A stretch of DNA of 64,000 bases, from contig CM067366.1 of assembly GCA_034401795.1 (NCBI GenBank), forward strand, positions 70,711,224 through 70,775,223. Direction: 5' to 3'. Every line of letters starts with the position of its first letter. Within the stretch, counting starts at the first letter, position 1. Source of the DNA: Chaetoderma sp. LZ-2023a (Eukaryota > Mollusca > Caudofoveata > Chaetodermatida > Chaetodermatidae). The notes beneath the pieces are model-generated. The model did no database searches. It saw only the letters and a program-made list of their open reading frames with translations, and was not told the DNA's origin. The position numbers and the translations under genes are program-made. Below, one piece after another: positions 35,863-64,000 of the stretch.

Positions 35863-35890
35863 CCCCTCTCTCTCTCCCACCCCCCCCCTT
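35539..35890 (+). repeat. (CTCA)n, (CT)n and poly-C microsatellite cluster, block 2
   Basis: About 40 CTCA units interrupted by (CT)n, then long (CT)n, a poly-C run near 35770 and further CT/CCCT. It is positionally equivalent to the clusters at 7641, 47450 and 54915. Long serine/leucine/histidine open frames across it are artefacts. Confidence 0.95.
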
Positions 35891-37560: not shown

Positions 37561-37660
37561 CACTCCTCATTTTGTATGCGCTTATGGATCGATTTAGCAC
37601 TTTGCCATCACCCCACCCACAATTCTCAGAATCACAATTTCAATGCAACTATACAGGTAA

Positions 37661-37745
37661 GCGGTGTGATATTGTGAAACTAATCAGACATTGAGATGAA
37701 CAGCTCCAAGTCAAATGAGTTTTGAAAAAATTCATCAGCACGCAA
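37661..37745. repeat. Hairpin core, degraded
   Basis: GCGGTGTGATATTGTGAAAC and GAGTTTTGAAAAAATTCATC keep the outline of the common palindrome, with CAGCTCCAAGTCAAAT in the right arm. It sits just before the TGACGTCA minisatellite of block 2. Confidence 0.55.
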
Positions 37746-37789
37746 AATAAGGGCATGCAAATCATATGCTTAGTCGGCCCTTTGCCACC

Positions 37790-38130
37790 TACATCACGTG
37801 CTTGTGACACATTTTGAATATGACATTGTGTTTTTGTGATGTCAGGTAATGAATGACACATTTTGAATATGACTTCAGGTGATTGAGACGTCAGATAATA
37901 AATTACACATTTTGAATATAACACCATGTGCTTGTGACGTCAGACAATGAATGGCACATTTTGAATATAACATCATGTGCATGAGACATCAGATATAGAA
38001 TGACGCATTTTTAATACGACATCATGTTTTTGTGATGCCAGATAACGAATGACTCATTTTGAATATGGCATCATGTGTTTGTGACGTCACATAATGAACG
38101 ACACATTTTGAACATGACATTATGAGCTAC
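37790..38130 (+). repeat. About 49-bp minisatellite carrying TGACGTCA-type sites, block 2
   Basis: About seven copies of the unit described at 8340, with variants GTGATGTCA, GAGACGTCA, GTGACGTCA, GAGACATCA and GTGATGCCA. The array precedes the conserved 38230 stretch, as in block 1. Confidence 0.85.
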
Positions 38131-40639: not shown

Positions 40640-40870
40640 TTGTATATCTTTAATGAATTTATAATTTACTAAATATTCTGTTGATTTTTTTAAAGTAATT
40701 TGACTGGGAGCTGTTCTTGTCATATCACCTAGTCAAATAGGTTTCAAAATATTGAAAAAGTGTACCTGTATAGTTACCTTGAATTTTATATTCTTGGAAT
40801 TCAGGTTTCAAAGTTTCACATCGATTTCGACATACATACCACTTGGGCGGCGCCTAGCTAGTACTGTATC
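40640..40870 (-). mobile_element. Partial foldback MITE with hairpin core
   Basis: The TTTAATGAATTTATAATTTA arm is followed by a core at 40680-40760 (TGACTGGGAGCTGTT and CCTAGTCAAATAGGTTTCAA) and the GTACCTGTATAGTTACCTTG arm ending in GGGCGGCGCCTAGCTAG. The equivalent position in block 1 (11920-12135) has a shorter remnant. Confidence 0.6.
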
Positions 40871-42639: not shown

Positions 42640-42721
42640 GTTGAATGTTTTGAATATAATTGGATTGGAAGACATTGCTGCAGCAATGTTGTCCAATTCA
42701 ATTATCTTCAGAATATTAAAT
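42640..42721. repeat. Hairpin core, variant type
   Basis: GTTGAATGTTTTGAATATAA and TTATCTTCAGAATATTAAAT with an inner stem GGAAGACATTGCTGCAGCAA; the centre is a CTGCAG palindrome. It is the variant form also seen at 2602 and 33232. Confidence 0.75.
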
Positions 42722-42956
42722 GGGAGATTTCTTACATTGTGCCAACTTCGAATGTCGTTTCCAATTATTGGTGATTCGTTATTGCAACATCAGTCAGTAT
42801 CTTATGTACACTGCTTTGTCTCATTTACAAGAAAATACCTCCTTGAGAACAAAGTGATTGAATCTCTGCCAGCTTAGCTACAGCCGCCGCATCTTACCAA
42901 TTGCAAATTATAGGATGGTGTAAGTGGAACTTTCAACATCACAGGTGCTAAACGAC

Positions 42957-43830
42957 TGTCAGCATTTGAGCAGAATGAGGTCCTGTCGCCAAATATTTTT
43001 CTGCAGAAGTGCACGCCAAATATGCTCCATTAAGGCAACTGCACTTCGTGGCAATATTTCAACATACTAACAAGCTTTCAACTGGCGGAACAAATGCTAT
43101 CGTAACTCACATGCATTGCAGATAATACTGCTCATATGGCAGATGAGGCTTACATAACACTCCACGCAAAGTACGAAATAACGCGTTGGTGTCCTGGGAA
43201 TATAGGTTCACCTTATATCCAGCCCTTGAAAACTGCAGTTACGGTGTCCACTTCCTCATGCGTGCTAACATTTATTTCTAAGCCACAATAAAAATAGGTT
43301 TTCACACTTTTTCTTGTGGAGGGTACCATTTTCACTGGGAATCCACTCTCAATTAAGCTGTCTACAAGAAGCAATGCTAACAACTCCTTAGTTTTATTGT
43401 TGGTGAGAAATCCTTTTGTATCCCCTTAATGAGGTCAGACTAATTACCGAAAACGACCGGAATGACCTAAACAGCAGCGAAATGATTTAGCATCCTTAAT
43501 GTGTGTTGCATTATAGAAGATGCGCATTTGTGGCCTTTGCTTTTCCTCTTCCACGTTCTCTTGTAGCTTCGTTCAATGGTTTACCTATGGTATAATTGTC
43601 AACTATGACGTGAACCCACTTGTAGCCATAGCCCCTACATTTTATAATCTGCACATAGGCTGAACCGTGTTCCATGCAAATAATAACGTTCTTAAATGAC
43701 CTAAGTTCCCGGGCAACTGCCATTCGAACTATTATGAGACAGAATTTTAATATCTGTACATGTAGTTCAGTCTCTAAGCATTTAATTGGACTCTCGGCAA
43801 CCTCGTTTTCAGCAGGAATCAAGAGAATTT
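42957..43830 (-). pseudogene. Decayed fragment of an uncharacterised, probably transposon-associated protein family
   Basis: The first open piece on the minus strand (43511-43822, 103 codons) contains VHVIVDNYTIGKPLNEATRE, which resembles the FDxY...SIKxxTRxRR signature I associate with a large uncharacterised family common in marine invertebrates. Further along the minus strand, in shifted frames, are THEEVDTVTAVF (like the family's HEEADT motif), SQDTNALFRTL (like SPDTDV) and LPRSAVALMEHIWRALLQKN (like LPPTxAALxxHIxRAxYQ). The order matches the family as I remember it, but frames change and stops intervene. There is no paralogous copy elsewhere in the window. Assignment rests on motif memory only and the function is unknown. 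Confidence 0.4.
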
Positions 43831-43839
43831 CTAGAAGAG

Positions 43840-44560
43840 TCCGTTACCCGTGAAAATATTGCACTTAGCTAGATTTGCCTTAACATGGTGAATAGATTCT
43901 TATTGGGGTAGTGAGGCATAACTTGAGTAGTGGTGCAGTCGTTCTCTGGTGCTATGATTTTGAGCATCTACATTTGGGCTAGGTACTCTGGAATTTGTCT
44001 GGCATAATCAAGTCGATCGGGAAGCATTACCACAGTAAGCATAGCGAAATCAGGTTTAGGACTTATTTAGGCCTATGTGGTGGCCATCGTGAAGTCAATT
44101 ACTTTTATAATGGCACAATCTAAATCATTGGACTGTAAAAGGATAATTGTAACCACTGGGACCGTGGTTATAACGTGGATAGTAGGCTAAATGAGATAAT
44201 GAGGAAAATTGGTCTGGCTGGCAGCTGTCCTGAGAACCAAGATGTCCGGCATTATATCGAACGTATAATGGCATTATCTTAGTTCTTGATCCCAAAAACC
44301 TAGGTATAGCCACTGGAATTGCGTCCATAGTTGGCTTAATAAGCGAGATATAGACAAAAATAGTTCAATGGTGGCAGCCATTGTAGAATCCAAGATGGCA
44401 GCCCTGACGGTTAATGAAAATAATGGCAAACAATTCTTTTTCATTCCTTGACTATTTTGAGCTGATTAAGCCTATTTGCCAAAAATCTAGCAACACATTT
44501 TTTTTCTGAACACAACCATATGGACTATTTCAACTCGGGTATCAATATATTCCATAGCAA
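43840..44560 (+). other. Unassigned single-copy stretch
   Basis: I find no counterpart in the other blocks, no open frame worth reporting and no recognisable repeat. It separates the pseudogene above from the start of block 3 and may belong to the same insertion. Confidence 0.4.
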
Positions 44561-44614
44561 TGAAAGCAATTGCATAGTTTAGTAATTCGATTCCGTAACG
44601 GAAGAATCAGCCAA

Positions 44615-44990
44615 TGGAAGAATCCGATCTGTCACTCAAATATAAGACGTCATTGTCAATCACGTCACATGTAGGCTAACGTCACAATATATAATGACGT
44701 ATGTAGCTCCGTAATACAGTTTGTGAAATCCATCACATGTGTACGAATTGTATATTTTAACCATTTATTAAACATTCTATTGAGTGTTTTGAAAATAAGT
44801 GTCCATAGGCAGCACAAGTACCAAGGAAAATTACTTTCAACATATTCAACAGCCTACCTGTATCCTGCTTATCTTGAAACTGGGATTCAGGACTTATAGA
44901 TTATAAATTGATTACAAGATACTGAAAAAGTGGGTGGAGTATGGCTACACAATTGTGGGACATAGCTAGAAATTGACCCGCCTATTCAGC
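44615..44990 (-). mobile_element. Foldback MITE, degraded, inserted in block 3
   Basis: It contains AAGACGTCATTGTCAATCAC and ATAATGACGT motifs, TTTATTAAACATTCTATTGA, a decayed core at 44778-44851 and a right arm with GTGGGTGGAGTATGG and CATAGCTAGAAATTG. Its flanks join the block-1 counterpart near 3410, where no element is present. Confidence 0.6.
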
Positions 44991-47449
44991 AGTATAATTG
45001 ATAGAATAATGCTTGAAGGTTTTACTCAATAGCTTGTGAAGTTCCTAATAATATACATCTTACTAGTTAATTGCAGATTATTTAGTCTTCAATAGCAAGA
45101 TATTACGGAACCTTTTTAAAATCTTGTAAATTATCTCTTTGTAGCATTCATTCTACATTCTATATATCTTCACAAATCCAACCCAATATTTAATCAATAT
45201 TGCAATTTGTAAACCTATGTTTATTTAGTAATACAGTATGTAGTGGGATATATAACAGGATTTCGGGTTAGTAAATGCAACCTTTTCTGACCAGGGCTAC
45301 TATATAAATATATCCGATAATGTTATTTCAGAAACAATTTGATTCAGATATTTCATTCTTTTATCTGTTAATGAATTCCAGTCATTGTTTAGCATCGTAG
45401 CACATAAGGAGATTAACCATTTTACTCTAGAATGTCGGTAATTACGCTGCCAAGAAACAAAGCATGTTAGCTGTCAATCCGAAATCATCGGCAAAGTCAT
45501 AGCGAATGTGTCATCTCCTTGATTAGATAACATGGAGCAGGTTACCGGGCCAATACTGAACAAATACAGGGTTGTATTGGCTAGGTATTGTCCCAGTAAT
45601 GGATCAGAAACACGCGTTATTAGGGCTGTGGCGGGTATATGGTCAAAATCTTTATGGAAATCTTGGAATTATTAAATTTATTATTGATAGTCATGTCTTC
45701 ATTATCTATGTCCAGTTACAAGTTTGCAGATTATTTAATTAGACGTTGTGAAATACTGTCAGCTCATCCGTCGTTGTTCTGAATAGATTTAAATGACACG
45801 ATTTTGACCAAGGTGTGAGAAATCCATAATTATTTTATCAGAAAACCTCTGTCAGCAACACCTGTGTGTACATTACGTCTTTTATCAAAAAGGAATACTC
45901 TTGCAAATGAGAATAGGATACTTACTTGATGAATATGTAACGGACTTTTTAAATCGATTTAGAAATAAATGATATTTTCCAAGTTTTATTCAATGTTTGG
46001 TCCAGGTTTCCCTATTGATCTATGGGATATGTAATTAGTTTGTACGCAAACGCAGCCTATTGCTTTCACTTCAGACCTTTATTATTCTTTTTATTTTTTA
46101 TATTCTCTGTAACACGTTTAGCCTGTATCCTCTATTCCAGTTTTGATCCGACAGACACCAAACTAGGAGAACTCGTAGTACTCCTCAAGATTTGGTTTAT
46201 GCCTAGTTTTATCTTGAGTGCATCAGATGGTTTTCGAGCGGTTTCCTTTTCCTTTCCCAAAAGTCATCTTAGCAAATATATGTGAATTTATGGTATGGAA
46301 TTTCGAACTGTTAATATGCGTACAATTTTCAGGGGGTCATCACCATACTTGGATAAAATGTCACGCTTGCTGTCCTGAATGTAGCTGGTGATTGCATACT
46401 CAACTGTCAAATGTTAGCATCATTGCTTGTGGGGTTAAATATGGTAGTTTTCGATTACGTAGAAATTAACTCCCTTTTTCAGTGAAGCTTCATGACCAGA
46501 TTAGATGATATACGATAGCATTTCTTGTGGGTCCATGTATACAAGTAAACTCCCGTTCACAAGAACATTTGAAAACAATAGGTATTTGTTCAAAATCGCA
46601 GCCAAATGTGCTTTGGCCAATCGACTTAAAACTTCGTGAGCCTCTAAATCTGAGATGGACCTAAAATGGTCTCAATGTCTTATAGGATCTATCCAACAGT
46701 TTTCAAGAATTCTGAGTTTACGTTCTGAATGTGACCCGATGGAAATGTATCTCTTTGATATGTGAACCACAGTTTCCATCAAGGTCTTTATCCGAATAAT
46801 TTTAAACGTGGTAATTTTCTAGCATATTGTGTGCTTCTTGGACCACCGTTTTCTGTACTTAACTACCATAGGTCATGATTTTTATCAGTATAGAGTGCGC
46901 TTAGAGGGTTTGTATAGTGGCGTATTCTATGAACATTGTAGATGTTGGCAACGAGTACAGCACATTTCAACGCTTTGTGCGTAGAGGTGACAATTGGGCT
47001 GAGTTGCGCATAGTACACAATACGTCGTTGGAGATTATAGTAGCCAGCCAGCGATGTTGTGTTATGGTACGAAGGTGCCCGTTATCTAGCTTATTCAGCA
47101 GCTTACCTGTGTATGTACTTGGTTTGTTCACATGAAAGACCTACCATTGTCATCAAAACCCACCACTGTTGCCATAAAACACAGGTCTAAGCTTTCGTGG
47201 GCTGGGTTTGAGCATATTTTATCTTCACGTCGCTAAATATACACCCCTCCCCAAATGTCAATATATCATGCTCTGATACTGGCTGTATCTGCCTCAATAA
47301 TGGCTAGAAAACATGCAACAGATATTTAATCAATAAATGTATTCTTTATATTTTAGATCACAAAGAGAACTCATCTTTGTACACGACCATGGATGAAAGG
47401 CATAACAGAATGGTCGGATATTCATCCAAGTTCTTTATATGTATACGAA

Positions 47450-47557
47450 TTTCTCTCTCCCTAGCGCTGTACCTTTCTCACTTTCTCCTTTTCTACTTCT
47501 TCGTTCTATGTTTTCTCTCCCCATCCCCTCCCTCCCTCTCCTTCTCTTTCTCTCTCC

Positions 47558-47608
<51 letters not shown>

Positions 47609-47621
47609 GCTCTCTCAATCA

Positions 47622-47667
<46 letters not shown>

Positions 47668-47725
47668 CTCTTTCTCGCCTTCTCTATCTCTCTCTACCGC
47701 GCGCGCGCGCGCGCGTGCGTGCGCT
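47450..47725 (+). repeat. (CT)n and (GC)n microsatellite cluster, block 3
   Basis: Long (CT)n tracts from 47557 to 47690, followed by a GCGC run at 47699-47722 that continues as GTGC. It is positionally equivalent to the clusters at 7641, 35539 and 54915. Confidence 0.95.
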
Positions 47726-48249
47726 TTCTATCTATACACCTCTACAATTGTATCGCTCTATATAGGATTTAATTGCTAATGATCATTTGGAGATAAAAAC
47801 AAATTCCTCCCTATTTCGTTCTCTGCACAGCTCGCCATACCGTACCGACCTAAGCATATTACATATATTCCTCTCTTGAGATTTACATTGAGATAGAGGA
47901 GACCTGGGCGTCCACCGTCTGCGCGGTAGCGAGACAACAATTGATTCCCGGCCATGAAACATTGCCTTCTATCTGACAATCACCATGCAGATTCTCATCC
48001 ATGAAACGGAAATTCCATTTCCTGTCGATTTCACGGTCAGTTCAGCTTCATCCATTGGTGGATTCTAAATGACACACTAGTGATGTATATGAAATCCACG
48101 AATTCACAGTGCCTGGCACATAATTACAGCCTGGAATCGTCTGCCAAATAACGGTTACATAATCCTTAAACATCTGCACACTGACGTCACCGTAGCCATA
48201 CGGATAACCTGTGGGATTTTTTGAAACTAATTTGACAGGATTAATAATC

Positions 48250-48338
48250 TGCTGAATATTTTGCAACTATTTTGGTAAGAACATCTTACTGTCATAGACA
48301 GCAACAGCATCCAGTAAAACTAGTTTCAAAATATTCAA
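48250..48338. repeat. Hairpin core, block 3
   Basis: GCTGAATATTTTGCAACTAT and CTAGTTTCAAAATATTCAAC, with CATAGACAGCAACAGCATCC in the right arm. A second left half-arm (TTTTTTGAAACTAATTTGAC) lies just upstream at 48216, which suggests nested or duplicated cores. It sits in the same place as 36392 in block 2. Confidence 0.8.
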
Positions 48339-48664
48339 CATCATATTTAGTAAATTGTAAACGAGTTTTAAATTTGCCTTTAGTGCTCAAAGGGTTAGCG
48401 ACATCATTGTAAGTATAAGAAAAGACTGCGATTAGGTATATTAGTACAGGTCAGTCGTTATATAAAATACAACGTATTGCCAGACCACTGTGGTTAGGTA
48501 TATTTTTGCAAGTCAGTTGCAATATAAAATAGCAGGCGTTGCTGGAAGAACCACCGTCTAACACGGTTATCTCTGGAATATGTTTGACTGTTTTATTTTT
48601 TAATTTCACCTCATGGCAATGCCATTAAAATGATGATAGATACGCAATGAAAGATCTATCACAG

Positions 48665-49045
48665 TAATGCACCTTTCCGGTTTTAACTATGTCCTACCCA
48701 TATCTAGCTAAGCTCTACCCACAAACCCGCTCGTGTTGGAATCGGTCGAACTCTGAGCACCCTGAGTATCACTTTCCAAAAACATACGCGGGTGATCTGT
48801 TGAATATTTTGAAACTAATTTGACTGGGTGCTGTTTCTGCCTTAGGCATGTTTATTAAATAGCAAAGAATTACAAAGACATACAATTCATACAACGTGCC
48901 GGACTATTTAAGATTTGATGACTGTCTATATGGGACTCTTTGCAACGTAATGATCGCGACGTCATCATACACGCGTTGAGCTGATTATGACGTCATACAA
49001 GGTCAGATGATGGATGGGTATTTTGAAAAGGTGAATTATAATCCA
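48665..49045 (+). mobile_element. Foldback MITE, copy E, half its core missing
   Basis: Starts AATGCACCTTTCCGG and runs through the CTACCC/GTGTTGGAATCGGTCG arm to a left half-core (GTTGAATATTTTGAAACTAA). It then jumps to the TTTATTAAATAGCAAAG arm with GCGACGTCATC, ending near GAAAAGGTGAATT. The right half of the palindrome has been deleted, a common fate of long inverted repeats. Confidence 0.7.
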
Positions 49046-49355
49046 TTTCTAATTGTCTTGGTAACTATGGATGAAATGCGTATAGTGCATCAGCGCCAGA
49101 GGAAGACCACATCAAATTCAACAGGCTTCATGGTAAATGCGCTCTGAGAAACTTGTCAAAATCTGGACAAAGATAATGGTCATTCTAACCTGGTATTCGT
49201 GTAACATACATGTCAAAATATGTTGACATCGTACCGAATATAATAGTCCGAATCAGCTCTGACTATCAACAGGTCATGCGATAGATATTTGGATAAACGT
49301 GTCTGGGCTCCGGGATAGGAATGTCGCTGCAGACAAGTGAGGACTGAATAATATA

Positions 49356-49357
<2 letters not shown>

Positions 49358-49441
<84 letters not shown>

Positions 49442-49534
49442 CCTCCCTCCCTCCCACCCTCCCTCCCTCCTTCCCTCCCTCCCTCCCTCTCACCCTCCCT
49501 TTCCCTCCCTCCCTCTCTCCCTCCCTCACTCCCG

Positions 49535-49568
<34 letters not shown>

Positions 49569-49592
49569 CTCGCTTTTTCTCTCGCTCTCTCT
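49358..49592 (-). repeat. (CT)n / (CCCT)n microsatellite
   Basis: CT runs flank a CCCT/CCCA core. It is a second pyrimidine cluster in block 3, at a site where blocks 1 and 2 carry the TGACGTCA minisatellite rather than CT. Arg/Glu open frames on the minus strand are artefacts. Confidence 0.95.
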
Positions 49593-50187
49593 CTGTCAGA
49601 ACTTTGCCACATTCAAGACGCACGTACATCATTTGATTGTGATGCCAGGTAGCGAGTCGCATGCGTTGATAATGAGGTCAGTTAGTTGAGTGACAGACAC
49701 AAGCCACCTATAGTGGAGAGCTGCCATCTTATAAATAAAGTTATCTCCCTAGTGAGATTGATTGTCTGAATCCACTCAGTTGTTGATACAGAGATACAAC
49801 GCCACCTGATAGAATGATGATTACTCCAGAACTAACCTCGCACGTATGTCACTTCAGGATAGACTATAACACATGCCTAAAAATACATCTTGTTACGAAG
49901 ACATGGTAAAACGACAGAATGATTTATTTCGAAAACCTTATGGTAGACTTAAATCCAAAATTGTGGGAGTTCATCGAGGAAACAGATAACAGACTCATTT
50001 TGACCTATATCAATTGGGTGGCTACCAAAGACTGAATATCATGGCGATCCCGTCATCTGGCAAAGACATATACTGAGCCAAAAAGGTTTAGCAACAGTGA
50101 AGTTTGGTTTGTTGTATTAGAACTATGCATCCATTTATAGCCAAATTTGCAGGCATGTTTCGTCAATGTAATGTCTCGCTGATCATG

Positions 50188-50217
50188 AAGAAATGCAAAT
50201 CATTTCTTGCATTTCTT
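50188..50217. repeat. Perfect 11-bp inverted repeat in the Tc1 leader
   Basis: AAGAAATGCAA and TTGCATTTCTT are exact complements separated by 8 bp, between the left terminal repeat and the transposase start. It could be a stem-loop in the transcript or a subterminal binding site; no function is shown. Confidence 0.8.
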
Positions 50218-50359
50218 GGCCGCACGCTTATTGCATATGAAAATGCATTTTTCCATGCACTGGCCCACACTGGCGGGTAGCGAAGGCAAAAATTCACCAT
50301 ACTGCAAAAGCAGATAACGAACGTTAACAGAAAACGCTTAAACGTTTACCCTACCGAAA

Positions 50360-51358
50360 ATGGGCCGCTGCCCAGGGCGACCCGAAAATCAGGGCCATGA
50401 AGCAATGTGAAGACTCGCTGCTGGGCAGAGCGTTCGCGCTGTTGCACGACATTATAATGTTCACGCCTCAACCATTTCCCGTCTCCGCCAACGTGAGCAG
50501 GAAACTGGACATGTTAATGACCGACCACGATCTGGCAGACTGAGAGCAACAACGCCACGAGAAGACCGCTACTTAGTGACGTCATCACGGCGTCACAGGT
50601 TTGAGACTGCGCCGCGGCTGTCCCGTAATTTGCACACCGCTACCGGCACAACAGTGCATGCACAAACTGTGCGAAACAGACTCCATGATTCTGGACTGCA
50701 TGCCCGTCGTCCACTTGTTGCTGTTCCGCTTACAGAGCGTCAAATCGAGAATCGGTTTGCATGGGCAAGAACTCATCAGCGATGGTGTGCTTAACAAAGG
50801 AGCCACATTGTGTTCAGTGATGAGTCGAGGTTTTGTGTGGATGTGGCGGATGGTAGGCGACGGGTTTGGCGACGTTTAGGAGAATGGTATGACGCAGCCA
50901 ACATCATTCAGCACGACAGATTCGGTGGCGGCAGTGTCATGGTGTGGGCTGGAATCCATGAAAATGGCAAAACAGATCTTATTGTGACTCGCGAAGACGT
51001 TGTCCCCCCTGTTGTCATCCCTTTTATGCAGCATCATGCAGACTTTATGTTCGAGCAAGACAACGCCCGTCCTCATTCAGCTAGGGTCACCAGTGATTTC
51101 CTTGAGGCTAACAATGTTCCGGTGTTGGACTGGCCAGCGCGATCACGGGACCTGTCTCTTATCGAACACGTGTAGGACATTCTTGGCCGTATGGTGCGTG
51201 AGAACCATCCACATCTTCACAACGTGCGGGAGCTGGAAGCTGCACTGCTCAAGGAATGGGATGCGAATCCTCTTCGTGACATCAGGTGCTTAATTCGAAG
51301 CATGAGAAAGCGATGTACGGCGGTGGTTAATGCGCGAGGAGGTCACAACCGGTATTGA
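50360..51358 (+). pseudogene. Tc1 transposase, inactivated by three in-frame stops
   Basis: One frame runs from an ATG at 50360 to a TGA at 51356 and covers a whole Tc1-family transposase. An N-terminal helix-turn-helix region (RLAAGQSVRAVARHYNVHAS, then a second DNA-binding part with TVRNRLHDSGLHARRP) is followed by the catalytic domain. The DD34E residues are all present: Asp in FSDESRF (codon at 50819), Asp in EQDNARPH (51059) and Glu in LIEHV (51164), with exactly 34 residues between the last two. It is broken by TGA at 50408, TAA at 50792 and TAG at 51173. The last sits where the family has Trp after IEHV. The first-to-second Asp spacing is shorter than usual, and a small in-frame deletion after TREDVV is likely. 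It ends with the familiar NARGGHNRY. It encoded cut-and-paste transposition and is now dead. Confidence 0.95.
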
Positions 51359-51911
51359 CAGCTCAGTGTCATTATTTAAATTGGACCCTTCCGTTGAATA
51401 ATGCCGTGTTAAAGGCGCGATGCTAGCATTACAGTAACAAGAGACTGTTGTTCAAATTGGAAAATGACATATCAATTAAATAATATGTTTGAATCATTTT
51501 ACTGTTTTTTGTTAAATAACATTTATACAGTAATATTCTCAGTGTTGCTAAACTTTTTTGGTTCAGTATATATTAAATACATCAATTATTTAGATAAACT
51601 AAATCAGGCACTTCGCATTTTCATCATCGTTTTATTGCATGCTCCTTCAGAAGTGGATAGAACGAGGTACGACCTTGGAATACAGGACAATACATGTAGA
51701 CAAGTTTGTTTGTTTTCGTTTTCATTCTTATTTCGAATAGATTCTGTAGTTGACAATGTCTGCCTTAAACCTTCGATTCATCTTGATTTATATATTATGC
51801 GATGGGAGATTCCTTCAAATGTCAAACAGAGGTGATTTAGTAAGCAACAGTGCGCATTATTCTGCAAACTATCGTGTTTATGGGTTCTATTAAATACGAT
51901 TGTTAGGTTTG

Positions 51912-52032
<121 letters not shown>

Positions 52033-52840
52033 CATGTCAATGGCACACAATGATCTATGCATATATGTTATTATTCTATTTTATGCTTAACAATGCCATA
52101 ATCTATAGCTAAATCAACAACACTTAATCCAAAGATTGGCCATACGTTCATGTAAAGCGATATGGATCTACGGGAGAATGCTTCAGAAAAATACAGCCTT
52201 GTCAAAATCATAGTTACAAAATATATAATTCATTTTTATACAAAACTCATATCTGCATCACGTGTATACCATCTCAATCACCATCCATTCACGTAGTGTG
52301 CGGTATTCTAATCCACGGAACTATCCAACAAAGGGGATTTATTTATGGCATGTGGCGAAAAAGACCTGTGCAAATATCTTTGCAGATTATGCCATCAATC
52401 AGCCTGATAGACGTTGGTGCATTGTGTTTGCTTCTAAATCACGTGCCCATTCTCAGATACAACTGATCGCGTGATTAAATACTATTAATTATTATAGAAG
52501 AGCAACACAATTTATCGCCGCTTCATGGCTATGGATCAGAAACTGAAGTGCATTAATATCGTGGGGGATTCCATATTTGGCTGCTCTCTTTGTGGATAAT
52601 ACATTTATAAAAAATGCCATTTTCGCTGGCAATCACAGTAAGGTCTATTCCAGAGACAACATTCATCCACAGAAACATATATTCAATGGATATACACGTA
52701 GTCAACTAGCATCTTAACCTGGGTTGCGATTTGATGGAGCAAGCATTGTGATGTAAGCGACAATGTACTCCAATGCTCCAATGAGTGAAGTATCCGAGAC
52801 ACACAGTGGATGGTAATAGAACTAGTAGACGTTATACAGT

Positions 52841-52926
52841 GTATCATTTTGAAAGTAATCTGACGGGACCTGTTTCTGCATTAGGCAGCAACAACCCCCA
52901 GTCACATAATTTTCTAAACATCCAGC
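52841..52926. repeat. Hairpin core, degraded
   Basis: GTATCATTTTGAAAGTAATC and CACATAATTTTCTAAACATC with an inner stem TGTTTCTGCATTAGGCAGCA. It is followed by a short arm containing GATTGCAACATCC. Confidence 0.6.
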
Positions 52927-53110
52927 AGCTGGCATGTACAAATACATTCGAATTTAGATCCTGGGAAATCGCATTTCAGTGTTTCAAATCGATTGCAACA
53001 TCCATAAGGTGTGGGCTTAGATAGAACTGGATCGTTCTACTAAACACACAATGGAGACACAAACGGCTAGTGCAACTCATCGTGCACATGCCTTTCATTT
53101 TATGAGGACA

Positions 53111-53218
53111 ATGGTCCAAGCTGTTGTTAACATTGGTCTCAACTGTTGCTAACATTGATTTGACCTGTTGATAACATTAGTCTAAGCTGTTGCCAGCATT
53201 GATCTAAGCTGTGGCTAA
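53111..53218 (+). repeat. About 24-bp tandem repeat, five imperfect copies
   Basis: The motif AAGCTGTTGCTAACATTGAT with TCT spacers repeats at a spacing of about 22-24 bp. Other blocks keep one copy at most (for example AAGCTGTTGCTAACG near 57170). Confidence 0.75.
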
Positions 53219-53721
53219 CGGACCTAGCAATAATCGAGTAATGGAGTGAAACAAATTTGTGTTAATATGATGCTAGAAGGCAACATTTGAGTAATGGAAA
53301 GGTATAATTATACGCTTTCATCATAGAGTCTACCTTCTAATCAGGTCAGACAAGATCTACATTATTTGGCGTTTTATCGTTATTTATCACGGAAATGAAA
53401 GATGATTTGATTTGATAAAATTCATTGTTTATGTCTTACCATAACGGAATGAGCATTAATTGATAATTGCAGCAAACAACACAGTTGTCTGTCTTGATAA
53501 AACCTACCATATATATGTTTGTCTGTGGCTTCACCATAATAAAAGCAAAGCAACCTTACAATCATCCGGTGCCGTGACTCATCCATCATTTCTCCGAGAA
53601 CACCGCCGTGGAATTATGACGGGAACATGAGGGAGGCTTCCATCGCTATTTGAAGCAAACATTGCCACACTAAGCTTGACAATGAGAATGTATTATAGGA
53701 TCAGCTCCGAAAATTAATCAG

Positions 53722-54089
53722 TATGATAACGTAGGAACCAATTTAAAGCAATGTGGACACAAAGCAATAACACGACCAATAAAATAATAATCATGACGCC
53801 ATCCTTTCAAAATCGATATCGTCATGTCTAAGCAGTGGGGAGAGAATTGCTTAATTAGAATCCAACGGGAAGCTTATGTTTTAAGCACAACACTTGGTGG
53901 ATTGCTGGATTGCTGTAGGGCATCGATTAAAGCTCTAAATCAATGTGTGCCAGTAGATGCATCTAATCTGCAAAACAGGAATCCGCCGTCAAAATCAACA
54001 CCATCATATTGTAGCCCACATCATAATCAGAAGGATGTATCTCTGCCACCACAATCGAAGCCTTTGTCACTAAACTGTAGGAAATGCAT
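53722..54089 (+). other. Junction stretch between blocks 3 and 4
   Basis: The block-3 match stops after GGATCAGCTCCGAAAATTAATCAGT and the block-4 match starts at TGTTGATTTAATAAACATTC. The interval between has no counterpart in the window. It holds one ATG-started open frame, listed separately. Confidence 0.5.
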
Positions 54090-54105
54090 GTCTTTGTTGA
54101 TTTAA
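53824..54105 (+). other. Unassigned ATG-started open frame of 93 codons
   Basis: The frame begins MSKQWGENCLIRIQREAYVL and runs through LDCCRASIKALNQCVPVDAS and a proline/serine-rich stretch to a TAA at 54103. Its last codons overlap the start of block 4. I recognise no domain. It is one of few ATG-started frames in non-repetitive sequence here, which makes it a candidate small gene or an exon carried in with the junction sequence. Chance remains a good explanation at this length. Confidence 0.2.
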
Positions 54106-54914
54106 TAAACATTCTTTTGAACATTTTGAAACTAATTCAACTGGGTGTTTTTGCTGCCAGCGGTAGTTTGAAAACACCTTACAGCAACAATAAGTCTTTC
54201 CTCTTTGGCCACTGTTTCTTGTCCTCAGTAAGAGTTCTTAGCTCAGGTATCAGGGTTTATGTAGTGGCGCCATTTATTAGCTTTGTGGATGTTGACACCG
54301 AGTGTAGCAGATTGCAAGGCTTTCTGTACAGAGATGTCTTATGGCATTTGCAAGCCATAGCCAAACATTGACTATCTTCCTTGGTCCGCCAGTGCTGCAC
54401 ATAGGGTATAATGTGTAGTTGGAGAGTATACTGCCCAGCCAGCGGTGCTGGGTTATAGTACGAAGGTATATGTTATCTAGCTGGCTCATACAGCTTACCT
54501 GTATAAGATTGGTTTGCTATATTGGTTTCTTCACATTGAATAACTACCCTGTTCTTCTAGAACCATTATAGTTGACACAAAACACCTATGCTCCCATGAG
54601 CTGTGTGTGTGTGTATTTGATCCTCGCGTCACTAAATATATCTCCAAAAATATCAATGTATGATGCACTGATACTGTCAGTACAGGCTAGAAAACATGCA
54701 ACAGATAGTCAATCAATAAATGCATCCTTTATATTTTACCTGTCTGTTAGATCACAAAAGATAACTCATCTTTGTACAGGCCCTTGGATTAAATGCATAA
54801 AAACATTTTTACGTTTTTCATCCAAGTGCTTTATATGTATTCCAATTTTCTTCTCCCTAAATTTTTACTTTTCTCGCTTTCTCCTTTCCTATTTTATCGC
54901 ACTCATTCTCTCTT

Positions 54915-54989
54915 TCTCTTTCTCTTTCTCTCTCCCCCCCCTCCCTCCCTCCCTCACTCCCTCCTGGCTCCTCCCCCTCCCTCTCTCTT

Positions 54990-55055
<66 letters not shown>

Positions 55056-55295
55056 TCTCCTTTGCTCTTGCCCATTCTCTCATCCTTGCCTCCCTGCCTT
55101 CATCCATCTGCCTCTTTCTCATTCCACCTATCCCTCCTCCTCCTCCATCTCTCTCTACCCCCACCCCCTCTCTTTCTCTCTCTCTCTCCCGTTTCTCCCC
55201 CTCCTCCCTCGCGCTCTCTCCCGTCCGTTCTCCAGCTCGTTCCCTCTCGTTCTGCCAGCCTGCTCTCTCTCACCATCCTTCTCTCTCCCTCCCAC

Positions 55296-55336
<41 letters not shown>

Positions 55337-55345
55337 CTCGTTGGC
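54915..55345 (+). repeat. (CT)n-rich microsatellite cluster, block 4
   Basis: CT, TTCT, CCCT and poly-C tracts occupy more than 400 bp with almost no purines on the + strand. It is the largest of the four positionally equivalent clusters. Long open frames here on both strands (Ser/Leu and Arg/Glu) are artefacts. Confidence 0.95.
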
Positions 55346-55716
55346 ACGTGTATGTCATCTGGAATGGCGGTATTGCAAATCTATGTTGTCGCCTTGAAAC
55401 CGAAATTATGTAAAATCATCGAAGAATACAGAATCCTTATTTCAATTGGATTGCTAACAAGTACTGAAGATCATTGGGATCCCTTTATATATTTCTTTAT
55501 ATATCAAACACATATATAAATACAGCAATACTTTACAGAAACTTAATTATAGTTAAGATGCAATCATTTGATCTCATATTCTTTCTTAAGTATAAAAAGC
55601 GAGCTACGGCATTAGAATCAAATAAAGTTAATGTGGATCCGTCGGTCTTATTTCCATTTAATTATGTAGTTGTCGGCGGTGCACTAAAACATCATCCGTA
55701 TTGATTTATTTATTAT

Positions 55717-56107
55717 TGACCTTTCCAGTTTATCCATTCACCCATCGTTATAATCAACTACGCGGCAATGTAGGATGACGTCATAATCAATTACAGCATG
55801 GATGACTCGATTTACTCCTTAAACGCATAATAGTCCGACACGGTGTACGAAGTGTATGTCGTTACTATTTAATAAAACATTCTGTCGAATATTTTGAAAC
55901 TAATTTTACTATGCGTTGTTGCTCCTAGAGGCAGCAACAGTTCCCAGTCAAATTAGTTTCAAAATATTCAACACCTTACCTGTGTAGCCTTTTTCGAAAT
56001 CGATAGTCAGGGCGATCAGGTATCGATCGATTCAGACACCAGCGAGGTGTGGCAGGCGCTTAGCTAGGTAGGGGGCGGCGAATAGCTAAAGCTGGAACGG
56101 TCCATTA
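55717..56107 (-). mobile_element. Foldback MITE, copy F (near complete, inverted)
   Basis: Begins TTGACCTTTCCAG and ends CTGGAACGGTCCATTA. The order is reversed relative to copy B: GGATGACGTCATAATCAATT arm first, then the core at 55884-55972, then the arm with GTATCGATCGATTC and GGGGGCGGCGAATAGC. The core arms pair over about 30 bp. The length of about 390 bp equals copy B. Confidence 0.85.
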
Positions 56108-56511
56108 GATGGCAGTTTCTTTCAAATAACAGGGACGGTTTAGCACGCGACAACGCACAATATTATGCAAACAATAATTGTTATGTATTCTATCAAATGC
56201 GACTGTTTGTTTGATTTATATGCAAAGAAAGGAATGTGTCTCTGGGTTATCATATGAAAAGGTATAAAACCAGCACCTGCACGGTATTCCTATATAGGTG
56301 TATACAATGTCATATTGATCTTTACAAAACGCTTCCATACACGTTATAGGTTACAAAAAACTCAATGTATGCATTTTCCATACATATCTGCAAATACAAT
56401 TGCACACCTTGAGCAATGTATATATGTTATCATCCCGCTTGCTTTTTCCCTGCCTATTATCTATATCCTCATAAACATAAACATAATGCATTCATCACGC
56501 ATTCATCACAT

Positions 56512-56697
56512 GCATCTGGACCTGATGGCATGAGCAATGAACTATTCAAATATGCAAGTGATATTATCTCAAAAGGGAGCACGCACCTAATCAATTCAGC
56601 TTTTATGCACCACCTTCTTATCGGCGCTGTAGACCAAGGCACCCTTATCGCACTACCCAATCCCAAGAATCCACATGGGCCCCCAGCCATTCTTCGC
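56512..56697 (+). pseudogene. Non-LTR retrotransposon reverse-transcriptase fragment
   Basis: Sixty-two codons read ASGPDGMSNELFKYASDIIS and on to TLIALPNPKNPHGPPAILR. This is the start of the RT fingers region in LINE-type elements (the xGPDGxxxE and PKPKK...P..RP.L landmarks), so the original encoded target-primed reverse transcription. Both ends stop abruptly in block-4 sequence: ATGCATTCATCAC on the left, TTCGCTGGCAATCACAG on the right. In blocks 1 and 2 the same flanks are separated by about 480 bp of other DNA (10855-11336, 39515-39993), so the fragment replaced that interval. No catalytic YxDD region is present. Confidence 0.8.
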
Positions 56698-57853
56698 TGG
56701 CAATCACAGTTAGGTCTACTCCAGAGATAACCTGTATCTACAGAAACATGTATCAATGAATATGCAGGTTCATATACGTATCTAACTCATTGACCCAGGT
56801 TAAGATTGGGTCGAGCAGATGTTGCCACGTAAGCGACAATGTATGCGACCGTATTCCAATACAGAGAGATCCCAGGAGCACGGCGGTGGTAATGAGGATG
56901 TCGATGCAATAAACATTGACTTGTTATAAACGCCCACCTTATCAATCAGCATAATCCCGTCAGACGCTTATGGAAATGCCTGCTGGGGGAACAAAAGTTG
57001 GTTCTCTTAGACAGGTGGTCTCCTGAGTTAGTGTAACCCACCACCAGTCCCACTGCTCAAGTCTCTTATTCAATGTGGTGAGGCCCTTAACCTTACAATG
57101 GAGGCATAAACTGGCAGTTCCTTTCATCATCCATATGCACGATAATTTATCAGGACTTTGCTCTAAGCTGTTGCTAACGTAGCCAACGATAAGCAAACAG
57201 CTGCTTAAAGCAACTTGGTGGTAGTTAGATGCTAGATGGCGAGAGTTGAGGAATGGAAATGATAACTATGCGATCCCAGCATGGTGTCTCCCTTCTAATC
57301 AGGTCAGACATGATCTACATTATTTAAAGTTGTATCGCTATTTATCGTTATTATCGAGGGAATGAAAAATGATTTGATTTCATATGATTCATTGCATGGG
57401 GCTTACGGTAAGGAATGTGCTTTACTCGATAATTACAGCACACAGTACAGTCAGTTGTCTGTCTTGGTAAAACCCGCCATATATATGTCTGTCTAAATCG
57501 CCAGCATGGTCCGTCACGGTCACAAAAACAAACCTTAACCAGAGACAATCCTCCCGTGCCGTGACTCATCCATCATTTCCCAGAGAACACCACCGTGGAA
57601 CTATGACCAGAATATGGGGAGGCTTCCAGCGCTATTTGAAGCAAACACTGCCGCATTAAGGTTGACAATGAGAATGTATTGTATAATCAGCCCTGGAAAT
57701 TAATCAGTGCAAGTGTGGCCTAACTATTAACAGCGTTGTAGCAGCGTATGCATGGCAGAGACACCGGTCGTGTGGGGGTTGGCGGGTGAGGGTGTGGTAA
57801 GGCTTCTGTTTAATATAAGTTTTGACCATGGGCAGGTTTGTCTGACCAGATAC

Positions 57854-57943
57854 TGTTGATTATTGGAAAACTAATTCTACTAAAACATATTGCTTCCAGA
57901 GAGAGCCCATGAACCCAAGCAGATTAGTTTCAAATTATTCAAC
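57854..57943. repeat. Hairpin core, block 4
   Basis: GTTGATTATTGGAAAACTAA and TTAGTTTCAAATTATTCAAC flank a diverged loop. No GC-box arm is attached. Confidence 0.7.
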
Positions 57944-58249
57944 AGGAAGCATTTGCTGGGAAATGCATCCCTAGCAACCCTCGTGAATGCGTTGGATTAG
58001 ATTGTCTGATATTTGAATTGAAATGATTATGTTGCAATGACAAGATTCGTTAATCTAAACTTCTCAAGTTTTGCTTGTCTCTGCAATAAAATGATGTATG
58101 ATGTTCTGACAAATACGGTATCCAGCGTTAATTCGTCATCATCGTCACCGTCGCCACCATCATCGTCGCGATCATCTAATGTTTTGTGTGAGGCGGATGC
58201 ATAGAGAACCACATATTTGTTGTGAATAGACGGATCCGATCTATCACTC

Positions 58250-58520
58250 AAGAATAGGACGTCATAATGAATTACATCATATGTTGCCTAACGTCACAGT
58301 CAAAATACATAATTAATGCCGTGTCCACCTCCGTCATGAACATTGAAGTCTGCCAAGTGTAGGAAGTGTATATATTTACTATTTAGTCAATAATCTGGTG
58401 TGTATTTTAAAACTAATTTGACCGGAAGAATTAGGAAATCAAAGTATATAAATTATCCCAACAAACACATGCCATGGGCAGAGCTTAGCTAGAAATGAGT
58501 GGGAATAGTTAGAGATGGAC
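58250..58520 (-). mobile_element. Partial foldback MITE
   Basis: Arm with GGACGTCATAATGAATTACA and CTAACGTCACAGTCAAAATA, a left half-core (TTTAAAACTAATTTGACCGG) without its right half, and a terminal arm with AGCTTAGCTAGAAATGAGTG and ATGGACTGCTCTATTA. Confidence 0.6.
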
Positions 58521-58959
58521 TGCTCTATTAAGATAGAGATATAATGAGTTTCTTCCCTACTACGAACGTACATCATGCTATGATGGTAAAACCTAAAACC
58601 GTGATTTTCGAGTCGTTCAACTTGTCCATTTATCAGCGCAATGAAAATGCTGTGTTTAAATATTGATTAAAAGCTGTGAGATATTATGACAGAATGTTAT
58701 ATGTGGAAAGGAATCTCTGTTGCAGATCGACATGAATCATGTTCAAGTTTACGTTAATATTTGAATTAATTTATTTTGATGTATAATATACAGTTTCTAT
58801 TAACAAATTTGGTCCGCCAAGGTCAGAGCCGGTGGAGCCCTACATGAATTAATCAAGTAACCTATGTCTGCGACATTCTCTTGGCATCCATAATATTATA
58901 AAAATACGTGACACTGATAAGCAATAGATTTACCTTTATTTTCTACGAAGATTATTTAG

Positions 58960-59010
58960 ATTATTTGAACATTATACTATAATGCCTGCCTTTGTCGCGA
59001 GCATCCTGTG
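58960..59010 (+). other. Array-equivalent site without satellite units
   Basis: The left flank (GAACATTATACTATAATGCC; compare GAACATTAAGCGAACATATC at 17320) joins directly to the right flank (GCGAGCATCCTGTGCCAGAAATGT; compare GCGAATGTCCTATGCTAGAAATGT at 31658). The 84-bp unit is absent at this paralogous position. Confidence 0.7.
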
Positions 59011-60801
59011 CCAGAAATGTAAAATATTTAACAGACATAGTTGGCGGTCGCAGTAAGAGAATCTGCTAGTTCAACTTGTGCATTCATCAGCCTAATGATA
59101 ACGCAGTGGTTGTGACCGACAAACCAACACATAGACTTATCTTTGTTGCGAGGCACAACGGAAAGAATCTGTCATTCATTCAGCGCCAAAATGTTTCATT
59201 TCATTTCAGCCAAGTCAGGCTCAAAAGCTTACAGTGCCAAGAAACTTAAAATATTCGTTACCCATGCATAGGACAATAGCAGGTATTTGCAAGTAAACAA
59301 GATATTTTGCTATACGCTATTCTCTTTATTAGCAGGCTGTTTACGATTTTGCTACTTTATACTCTAATAGGAATCCTATGCATAACCACGCGTGCGTCCG
59401 TACGTCTGTGAGCACTCACAAGCTCGTGGTCCACATATGCTGATGTGCGAGAGGATGTGTATATGTATGCATATAGGTTTGTTTACGCGTTAATGACGTT
59501 GATAATAATAATAAAAAAAATTATAAATACAAACAAAATGCCAGAGAGCGATAGAAAGTATCTCTGACACACGGCCCTATGATCTCTAGCGTGGCAATAA
59601 TCAGTATGATATCTCTCTCATGATAATCCACTATTCCTCGCATCTCACAATAGCACGTGCTCAATATAGATGTGTTCCTATGTGTAACTGTAATATCTAA
59701 CATCAGAGAACAGCTCATTATTGGAGAAATCTGAAATGCCACCAAGATTTTACAACAAATTCCAAAAATATACAATCTACGTTATCAAATCACATTGATC
59801 CTATATTACCAAAAACACGCCATTTCTGCGTTCATCTCTACGATACGCTCTGACTCGCTGGAAGAACCACCCGGCTTGTAGGGACACGAGATGTAGTTAT
59901 TGAAGACCATGGGTGGAATAACCACGGAGCATCTGTCCTTAAGGAAGCCCAATATTGTCGGTTCAGAGGGTCCAGAGCGACGCTATTCATATTGGAATTG
60001 GAATTCCGTAAGAATGAAGGTCTGTCTTCAGTGAAGCAAGGTGGCCGCTTTAGACAGGTTCAGAGTCCGATGCAGCAGGTGGATACACATGCTCTTCGTT
60101 CTTCTGGAATCCCCATCTTCTACAGCCTCATCTTCAGCTTCAGTGGCATGGCAAATCCTCCTCACCGACGCTACTTCGTGTTTGTATAAGACTGAATAAA
60201 CAACATGCAAGTTCCCAGGAGAATGATAACCGAGCTACGACTGACTGACTGGTGGACGGACGCTCAGTGGAGATGGAAGCAGCGTCTTGAAACATGCATT
60301 ATGAGATGGAACATTTTTGATACGCTAAACATGCGCATAATGTCTTGATGCATTTCAGCTCAACACGTGGTGGTGTACAAGATATATGTTTGAAACAACC
60401 AATTCCTTAAAGAACCACCACCATCTGCCCGACCAGGCATACAGTATCCTTGTATTAGCAGTGGATATAGCCAGACATGCTACTTTTTGCCCGCTTCTCC
60501 TTCCTCTTTGAGGTGGTCCAGAAAGAGAGGTTTGACAGCGATTCATATATCATACCCATAGCAAGAATAATGTATACATGATGAATCACTCTATGTCCGT
60601 TACGCAGCTACAAAGATTTCGTTAGAAAATACCAGGAATGCTTTCACCAGCCCTGCCCAGGAAAGTGATACCAAATCACAATGTGCATGCGAAGAGGCAT
60701 CCGTCAATGGTGATAGAATTGGGGAAATATATTTGGTGTCAACGTTAAACATTCCGCATCTGTAGATAAATAGAGTACAGCTCAGAAATAACATGGACTT
60801 A

Positions 60802-61200
60802 TGGCTGGAATTCAATAAGGAGGTTTAAACCCTGTTTAACCTAAACCTGGTAACAAACCACAAAGTAATTGCAATGTTAGTATTATAGATACGGCAATAG
60901 CCTACCAATTTCATGAGTTGAGACCCAGACCACGCACCCTTTAAGGGAGTGGCCCATAAATACCAAATTATGGGCGCCCTTCGGAAGTGGGATGGGCTCT
61001 TTGATGCCTCACCCACTTAGAAGGAATGCACATATTTGGGCAATTAGACCCCACCTCTTGCACGGCGCGTGACCTAACTCGCAACCAGTAAAAGGTGAGG
61101 GCTATCAGCCTATCTATACGACTAGCTTTGCAATTCCTTTGTGATTTGGTACCCGGTCTAAGTTAAACCGGGTTTAAACATCCTTATTGAATTCCGGCCA
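60802..61200 (+). mobile_element. 399-bp MITE with long terminal inverted repeats (second family)
   Basis: The left end TGGCTGGAATTCAATAAGGA and the right end TCCTTATTGAATTCCGGCCA are inverted copies. The complementarity continues inward, with GTTTAAACCCTGTTTAACC mirrored by GGTTAAACCGGGTTTAAAC-like sequence and then a diverging arm, for nearly 100 bp. TA at 60800-60801 and 61201-61202 looks like a TA target duplication. Paralogous sites near 2565 and 33205 read ATAACTTA without any insert, which marks this as a clean insertion into block 5 only. No coding capacity. The TA duplication suggests Tc1/mariner-type mobilisation, as an inference. Confidence 0.9.
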
Positions 61201-61669
61201 TATGTTAACAAAACAGAATAACACGCAATGTTGAATGTCTTCCAATATAATCATGTTCAAAATATTCAGCAGAAGATTTCTTACATTGTGTTCAAAATTG
61301 TACTAACTAACACGTTTCTGTTTTTGCTTAGTGCTAATGTGTTGGTGTTCCAAGGATAATGTTCATATACTGGACGACACAGCATCAGCTTTCACAAAAC
61401 TCTTAGTAAATAAGCATCAGATTGTAGTAAGCGAATAGAAAGTAATATAATTCTGCCCATTATGGTAATCAACACAAGATCTAAACCAGGACCACACCGG
61501 CCCGTAGTTCAGAATCATTGCATTATTGCTGTAACACTGATCTGGATGGCATGGGAATTTGGTAATAATTTGCGATTCACCAATTGGCTTGGGAAATATG
61601 TAAATCACTATACTAATATAGTGTTGGTGTCTTCTGTAACTACGATACAGATATGTGAACTATGCTGAA

Positions 61670-62070
61670 TTGACCTTTCCAGTTTTAGCTATGCCCCGCC
61701 CATCTCTAGCTAAGCTCCACCCTCACCTCGCTCGTGTTGGGATCGATCGATCTCAAACACCCTGACTATCAATTTCCAAAAAGCTACGCAGGTAAGCTGT
61801 TGAATATTTTGAAACTAATTTGACTGGCTGCTGTTGCTATCTAAGGCAGCAACAGCGTCCATTCAAATTGGTTTCAAAATATTCAACAGCATGTTTATTA
61901 AATAGCAAAGACATCCAATTCATGCAACGTTTCGGGCTATTTAAGATTTGATGACGGTCTATATGGAGCCATTCGTGACCTGATGATTGTTACGTCATCA
62001 AGCACGCGCTGAGCTGATTATGACGGCACACGAGGTCAGATGATGGATGACTATTCTGGGAAGATGAATT
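61670..62070 (+). mobile_element. Foldback MITE, copy D
   Basis: Starts TTGACCTTTCCAG and has the GCCCCGCCCATC / GTGTTGGGATCGATCGATC arm, a well-matched core at 61799-61887 and the TTTATTAAATAGCAAAGACA arm with TGATTATGACGGCAC and GATGATGGATGAC. The far end is decayed (CTGGGAAGATGAATT). It lies at a position comparable to copies B and C. Confidence 0.8.
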
Positions 62071-62284
62071 AGCTTAGCCTGAACATTTCTCACGTATGTC
62101 CCTGTACATTAGGAATGATTGCGAACTATTGTGAGATGTCATCTTGAATCACTAAGAGAATAAGAATGCCAGCCCTACATCAACGTGTATTCCTCTGTAT
62201 TAATTTATCACATCTTAGTAGGAATGATAGTAATTCGTTTGAACGTGGCGTATCTCAAAACTGTAGCGAAGGAAACAACAGTTT

Positions 62285-62600
62285 CGCGTCATAATCAAAT
62301 ATGTGACATGTAGGATGACGTCACGGTCTATTACAGCGTAAATGACTCGGTTTTGTCGGTCTGAAACGCTTAATAGTCCGACACATTGTATGAATTGTAT
62401 ATCTTTACCACTTAATGTCGATTATTTTGAAACTAATTGGGCTGGGCGCTGTTGCTGCCATCGCATAATTACCTTGAAATTGGTATTCTGATAATTCACA
62501 ATTCAAATGTATAAATTGATTGCAACTCGCGCAAAACGTGGGAAGAGCTTAGCTTGCAATGGGCGGGGCATAGCGAAAAATAACTCAATATCTTAACAGA
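62285..62600 (-). mobile_element. Partial foldback MITE
   Basis: CGCGTCATAATCAAATATGT and GGATGACGTCACGGTCTATT arm, left half-core at about 62416-62462 (GTCGATTATTTTGAAACTAA) and the GTGGGAAGAGCTTAGCTTGC / GGGCGGGGCATAGCG arm. The right half of the core is missing. Confidence 0.65.
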
Positions 62601-64000
62601 GTAATGGTTGAAAGTTTCTGTTCTTAGTCCAAATATGCTGAAAAATTTCGTGGTACAACTGTTCCATGACAAACCCGACCGAAACCGGCCGAAACTGGCC
62701 TCCACGGTAGTCTTAAGAAATGTCAATTTGCAGGCTAATAGAAAACAATTTTTGAAAATGTACCACTGGAACGAGTTGTTCCAGTCCTTCTAGTAGTATA
62801 TCTTCCAAAATAGTATTCTTTTGCCCACTACCTGACATTTAATAATGCAATATTGTTTACCAAATGTATCCATTAAAAGGTTAAATACATATTTATCTAG
62901 TAGTCGAAAACAGGTTCTGTAAGAACATTTATATATTTTGCAAAACATTTCTTTGTAGTGTTCACTCGTAAATCTAAGAGTTTCTAAAAGCGCTACCCCC
63001 ATGCTGCATGAACATTGCAATCTGCAAAACATGTGTTTATTTAGAAAACAGCATGTTGCAGTAGGCCTATATAATTTAGGGTTATCAGGTTTGCAAATAC
63101 GGCCTCCTTTCTGACAACCGCTACTAGAGACTAGAAATTGATCCAATAATTCTACGTCGGGAACCATTGATTAAGAGCATACTTTACCTGTTAATGAACT
63201 AATTTCAACCCAGGTTAGAATTAACCATTTCACTCAAGCATTTCCGTACTTAAACTTCTACGCAACCAGCGATGTCAGGCGCTTAATATTTCAACTGAAA
63301 ATTGACTGGACGCCGCCACTGAATATATTGACAACCTGAATGTGTCATCTCCCTCATAGTGCAGGCTACAGTAACTGCCTGGGCCGGTACCGGGCAGGCA
63401 TTGGCACAGTACTTGCCCAGAACTGGGCCAGTAACACACGTTATCAGCACCATGGCATGAATAGCATACGGGCGAAATCTGTGGGCAATTTTAGAAACAT
63501 TAAGTACACTTATTATCAATATCCTTGCTCTGTTTTCATTCACATTATTAGAGATTATTTAATTAGAAGTTGTGGATTGCGGTCCGATCTTCAATAGATG
63601 CTCTGAGTAGATTGTATGAATGACACGATGTAGACCGAGGTGTGAAAAGTGTTTGTCATAGAACCTCTATCATCAACACCTGTGTGTACACGGCGTCTTT
63701 TATTAAAAAGCAATATTCTTGTAATTGCGAATAGATGATGACGTACTTGATGAATACGTAAAGAAAATGTATCAACGGTGGTGAAATGAAGCGATATTCT
63801 CCAAGTGTTATACAATATTAGTTCCAGGATGATGATCCCCTATCAAAGAGATGTGTAATTAGGATGTATGCAAGCGCAGACTATTGTATTTACTTCGGAT
63901 TGTTCTTATTCTTTTTCTTCTTAATTTTCTCTTACAGTTATGATCCGATGATCAACAAACTAGATAAGTGAGTACTACACCCCCACCCACCACCACCCAA

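Follow-up and report, generated by a model that had tools for sequence, protein, structure and literature searches.

An 84-bp tandem array at one of several homologous segment junctions in Chaetoderma sp.: probable block-wise growth of an old repeat in place

A tandem array that fills one place in a chromosome, when corresponding places nearby hold a single copy of the same unit or none at all, raises the question of whether the array was born there, survived there or arrived from elsewhere. Satellite origins are usually inferred across species. In the window, i.e., the whole stretch of 64,000 nucleotides analysed here (Chaetoderma sp. LZ-2023a, assembly GCA_034401795.1, contig CM067366.1), one-unit, no-unit and 169-unit states occur on one chromosome, with common flanks. 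The genome has 44 matches to PF14830, the haemocyanin beta-sandwich domain, which is a marker of molluscs and was matched in none of 14 control genomes; one of the 44 also aligns with 14 solved haemocyanin sequences (E up to 1e-50). According to the original prediction, which was made from the letters alone, a satellite birth (or total loss) would be caught here inside one tandem duplication, at three homologous positions.

The setting of these positions can be described from self-comparison of the window, which contains no N and consists of a succession of old tandem segments. With 100 kb fetched on each side (some stretches being N), the series can be followed from about -16840, where the unit of site S0 lies, to about +86000, and it comprises seven members, U0 to U6. 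The segments of the window are as follows.

250..17352, plus strand: segment U1 (limits approximate), from window self-comparison
31631..42079, plus strand: segment U2 (limits approximate), from self-comparison and segment alignments
42237..53722, plus strand: segment U3 (limits approximate), whose 5' end with the site was not found
53723..58984, plus strand: segment U4 (limits approximate), whose 5' part with the site was not found
58992..64000, plus strand: start of segment U5, which continues past the window to about +72000

Alignment of a 3'-proximal block in seven segments gives identities of 71.2-81.5%, and alignment of a 5'-proximal block in five segments gives 78.4-87.1%. Segment trees are star-like, with short internal branches. 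Gain versus loss of the repeat is left unsettled by them, since the split of U0, U1 and U2 from U3-U6 has a support of 91 and all other splits have 66 or less. The block at 12950-13700 and its paralogues are kept in all seven segments (71-82%); no reading frame common to them was seen by eye near this 3' end, and a 62-aa piece of the block had no Pfam match. Within U6, from +73688 to +80988 in window coordinates, a sequence of about 3.6 kb is tandemly duplicated, the listed open frames of the two copies being 86-100% alike.

The position of the array corresponds to the junction between segments. At the junction preceding U2, termed S2, the array and its edge were delimited as follows.

17353..31571, plus strand: 84-bp array of site S2, with 169 units and a further 23 bp (TRF, segmentation, 40 unit types)
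31548..31630, plus strand: right-edge unit of S2, the first 23 bp being part of the array and the remainder a diverged unit homologous to that of S1

TRF reports a period of 84, 169.3 copies and 96% matches over 17353-31571, and segmentation yields 169 repeat units, all of 84 bp except for the one at 28693, which has 83 bp; the 169 units predicted at 17354-31548 are therefore borne out. Copies of one unit thus follow each other head to tail, as in a satellite or minisatellite array. The second-longest array (period of at least 15) in the 264 kb examined measures about 1.2 kb. Only the first 23 bp of the right-edge unit are identical to the array consensus, and the stretch 31571-31630 aligns with the S1 unit with a score of 31, the best among 1000 shuffles being 16.

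Comparison with the sister sites depends on the following features.

598..690, plus strand: single diverged unit of site S1, 78% identical to the array consensus over 598-677 (E 2e-12)
17147..17327, plus strand: left flank of S2, partly homologous to the left flank of S1 and to 58653-58974 at S5
31631..32135, plus strand: right flank of S2, homologous to 829-1338 (79%) and 59164-59538 (71%)
58975..58991, plus strand: junction S5, at which the flanks meet without a unit (alignments and shuffles)

On the left, 17147-17231 matches about 491-568 and 58653-58743, almost entirely outside a dispersed repeat. This dispersed repeat lies at about 286-506 and at 16900-17119, just left of the array site at S1 and S2, and is matched in both orientations in the flanks; since they are part of it, both stretches were discounted as evidence of homology. 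At S5, homology to S2 stops at 58974 on the left and starts at 58992 on the right. The score of the left flank against that of S2 is reached by none of 1000 shuffles, and the right flank beside the junction has moderate support, being equalled by 4/1000 shuffles against S2 and 25/1000 against S1. Farther right the correspondence is unambiguous (31755-32135 with 59164-59538, E 9e-57). No unit was detected at S5: as many as 664/1000 shuffles equal the score of the S1 unit and 749/1000 that of the array unit, and for the right-edge unit of S2, where 32/1000 shuffles are as good, the best match (about 59121-59159) lies off the junction.

The S1 unit carries a 1-bp gap, and directly adjoining it on the left are 17 bp, 12 of which match the end of the unit (counted by eye). 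Outside the window, at -16837, S0 has one diverged unit, and none of 1000 shuffles reaches its score against S1, the right-edge unit or the array. A second full unit was not detected at S0, S1 or S5, nor was any unit in the stretches tested at junctions S3, S4 and S6 (alignment and shuffles). Where flanks or unit are recognisable, the counts are thus one at S0, one at S1, 169 at S2 and none at S5. As aligned, the flanks of the three sites first proposed are homologous and not unrelated sequences. Of the one to one and a half diverged units anticipated at about 550-690, a single one is present, at 598-690, and the flanks expected to join free of units near 58985 do so at a junction lying within 58960-59010. 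The flank and unit alignments and their shuffles thus uphold the homology of the positions, but not that there are three of them, S0 being a fourth site and three junctions being without units.

Whether the array could have come from elsewhere was addressed by a genome-wide search of the 2.44-Gb assembly with a 33-bp core of the unit, allowing at most two mismatches. The core has 169 matches assembly-wide, as many as in the window, i.e., in this array, with none on the opposite strand and none for a reversed control at the same threshold. The S2 array is private to its place in the searched assembly at up to two mismatches in 33 bp, so that the repeat occupies one genomic place by this measure, although more diverged copies may exist outside the fetched flanks. 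Import from another satellite, for example via a circular intermediate, is a route named in the satellite literature, at least in the part of PMC5615363 consulted. Since every match of the core in the assembly belongs to the array, such an origin is without support here, and the array moreover stands where sister sites hold a diverged unit; import is extremely improbable, and the private core agrees with an expansion on the spot. A search with the flank 31640-32280, in which 40 of 245 candidates were scored, returned the query itself, two matches in segments and 37 to a dispersed element. This element, at 32133-32280, is present in U2 and missing from the aligned sister segments, and among the scored matches its 37 further copies are 82-89% identical and spread over many contigs.

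If the array grew where it stands, the next question is from which unit and when. Array units are similar to each other (mean pairwise divergence of 2.91% for 168 units), and the segments differ by 13-29%. Over unit positions 24-68 (44-45 sites), the array consensus is 67% identical to the right-edge unit, 68% to S1 and 69% to S0. The array core is thus as far from its own neighbour as from the units of other sites, which speaks against simple recent growth from the adjacent copy. Of the pairs among array, S0, S1 and right-edge unit, that of S1 with the right-edge unit reaches 75% identity and the others 67-71%; the array is nearest to its own neighbour unit in 996/5000 bootstraps, and the unit quartet offers 2, 2 and 3 informative sites for the alternative groupings. 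The idea that S1 is progenitor-like in any special sense is not supported by this comparison, no special closeness to the array being apparent. Over unit positions 1-23 plus the nine bases ahead of them, array and S1 agree at 30/32 positions, against 30/44 in the core (Fisher p 0.009 for a contrast picked post hoc).

Given the roughly equal distances among the array, S0, S1 and the right-edge unit, the amplified lineage would seem to have branched off early, and from these sequence distances it looks approximately as old as the segment duplication. The site may ancestrally have held a single copy, as S0 and S1 have one unit and S5 none; yet the distance from the array to its neighbour unit is as large as that between units at separate sites. 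This would imply that S2 long contained two or more units, in which case the present uniformity of the array would result from late growth or from continued homogenisation.

These same distances bear on a different history, in which the array is ancestral: all sites would once have been multi-unit, S0, S1 and S5 having collapsed to one unit or none, and S2 having kept its array, homogenised by concerted evolution. The split between array and right-edge unit, apparently about as early as that between segments, agrees with this, as do the 17 bp left of the S1 unit, which look like a remnant. Such a history nevertheless requires at least three separate collapses or losses, unless segments share history, and S0, S1 and S5 showed no second full unit. 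It is regarded as the less likely history, though a serious rival.

The probable explanation is block-wise amplification, in place, of an old short repeat at S2, with a deletion at S5. Seven tandem copies of a chromosome segment would have formed long ago, with a short sequence of about 84 bp at the segment junctions, which probably already exceeded one unit in the ancestor of S2. At S2 alone the repeat would then have expanded in place to 169 units, S0 and S1 each keeping one worn unit. The unit of S5 would have been lost, most simply through a small deletion, and larger losses probably removed the site at S3, S4 and S6. Growth at S2 would have proceeded mainly by the copying of blocks, through unequal exchange or break-induced replication between misaligned copies, not by slippage of single units. 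We infer the order of these events, the deletion at S5, the losses at S3, S4 and S6 and the mechanism of exchange. A birth accompanied by internal controls is a plausible reading. What stands of the predicted birth (or total loss) within one duplication is that homologous sites carry 169 units, one unit and none and that the core is private; what is not supported is S5 as the state before birth, since S0, S1 and S2 all carry a unit and S5 may be a deletion.

The manner of growth can be read from the order of the unit types. The 169 units fall into 40 types, and adjacent units are identical in 7/168 pairs, i.e., fewer than expected by chance (shuffle mean of 14.8). Identity is enriched at a lag of 27 units (32/142, z 6.3) and of 29 units (30/140, z 5.8), neither value being reached in 5000 shuffles; both exceed 4.8, the largest shuffle z over lags 1-60. 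Lags 14 (27/155, 1/5000 shuffles, z 4.2) and 39 (24/130, 0/5000, z 4.3) are also enriched, both remaining below this all-lag maximum. Enrichment is weaker still at lags 11, 12 and 43, and there is a deficit of identity at lags 6 and 8. Within the array, perfect repeats measuring 1848, 1397 and 1134 bp occur at lags of 27, 29 and 14 units, and the longest identical block spans 21 units, the maximum among 102 shuffles being 6. Because neighbours are rarely identical, lags 27 and 29 are enriched and perfect repeats reach kilobases, growth has taken place chiefly by blocks, which are offset by 14-29 units (1.2-2.4 kb), not unit by unit. Some small steps are possible, as lag 2 shows a mild excess (22/167, reached by 118/5000 shuffles). 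Unequal exchange and break-induced replication would each fit growth by blocks and would look alike in these sequences. An unusual hairpin was considered as a driver and rejected, the five unit strands that were folded giving z values of -0.99 to -0.17, none notable.

Perfect repeats on the scale of kilobases are also places where assemblers may err, and those of 1.1-1.8 kb found here could mean that the length of the array or its block pattern is partly an artefact of assembly, copies having been collapsed or repeated. Against this, the window has no N, and the 40 unit types form a mosaic of several block lengths instead of one repeated stretch; a collapse, for its part, would imply a longer true array, not its absence. 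An artefact of this kind is considered improbable.

A further possibility is that the array is an exon coding a protein repeat of 28 residues. The unit length is suggestive (84 = 3 x 28), and an open frame of 3794 codons runs across the array on the plus strand, but repetition of a unit whose length is a multiple of three can produce such a frame. Among 30 distinct variants, a sample of low power for detecting codon constraint, 21 are replacing, 8 silent and 1 a stop in the plus-strand frame (21.3, 7.3 and 1.4 expected without selection), and 19, 8 and 3 in the minus-strand open frame (22.0, 6.6 and 1.4 expected), so that the counts are near the expectation in both. The frame is broken by the 1-bp deletion in the unit at 28693, and the 1-bp gap of the S1 unit likewise speaks against coding; with no codon constraint in the 30 variants and a broken frame, the array has the marks of non-coding DNA. 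A 12-unit piece matches ten Pfam families (E up to 0.0015), and seven of these exceed the Pfam whole-protein cut-off. However, the ten families are mutually unrelated and no single stretch passes alone, and the matches are read as sums of repeated chance matches. A coding repeat is thus very improbable. No known RNA family was found in the window at gathering score, and no tRNA.

Among known systems, long minisatellites form a class with a mosaic of variant units, and higher-order repeat structure is known in satellites. The S2 array resembles a long minisatellite in its unit of tens of bases, its length of kilobases, its variant map and its block duplications; it differs in having a unit at the long end of the size range and in being known here from one assembly. 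As in higher-order repeats, blocks of many units recur, but without a single regular block length: a regular multi-unit period is not found, the lags being several, with 27 and 29 strongest and 14 and 39 weaker. The process is of a known kind, combining single-locus birth and local amplification as outlined in the part of PMC5615363 consulted, where section 3.4 treats birth at a single locus as a stage of the satellite-DNA life cycle of Ruiz-Ruano et al. and unequal crossing-over is named for the process. Compared with the birth stage as given there, sister paralogous sites of one genome here show the one-unit and no-unit states, and the amplified lineage looks old rather than freshly duplicated. 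No paper treating this case, judged by title and start of abstract, was found in the open-licence literature. The array is a clean example, not unprecedented in kind, and it is clear and probably ordinary as an instance of a local DNA repeat expanding in place. As the core occurs nowhere else in the assembly (at most two mismatches), no background of dispersed copies obscures the early steps, which lead from an old short repeat to block copying. Other good assemblies of old tandem duplications probably contain similar cases.

A second tandem repeat near these sites raises the question of whether the place, instead of the unit, matters for growth.

690..847, plus strand: second tandem repeat at S1, six copies of 26 bp, adjoining the single 84-bp unit (TRF, alignment)
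31636..31660, plus strand: the 26-bp motif at S2, present once

At S5 the 26-bp motif is present perhaps as a remnant. Because two sister sites each show expansion of a different one of two adjacent sequences (84 bp x 169 at S2, 26 bp x 6 at S1), it might be suggested, tentatively and with considerable doubt, that the two expanded independently and that the segment junction is itself prone to tandem growth. The site and not the sequence of the unit would then decide where an array starts, and the S2 array would have stayed short for a period similar to the age of the duplication, its growth in kilobase blocks coming afterwards. One pair of cases is insufficient for a rule.

Other elements of the region include transposase-like open frames at 50411-51175, inside U3, of which 50411-50791 convincingly matches Pfam HTH_Tnp_Tc3_2 (E 8e-19); of ten translated stretches of the window compared with Pfam, eight were without any family. 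Tandem repeats of 49 bp with similar units are found at 8366-8625 (5.3 copies), 10016-10145 (2.7 copies) and 37805-38124 (6.5 copies), and a 49-bp tandem repeat of 2.8 copies is also present at -4209.
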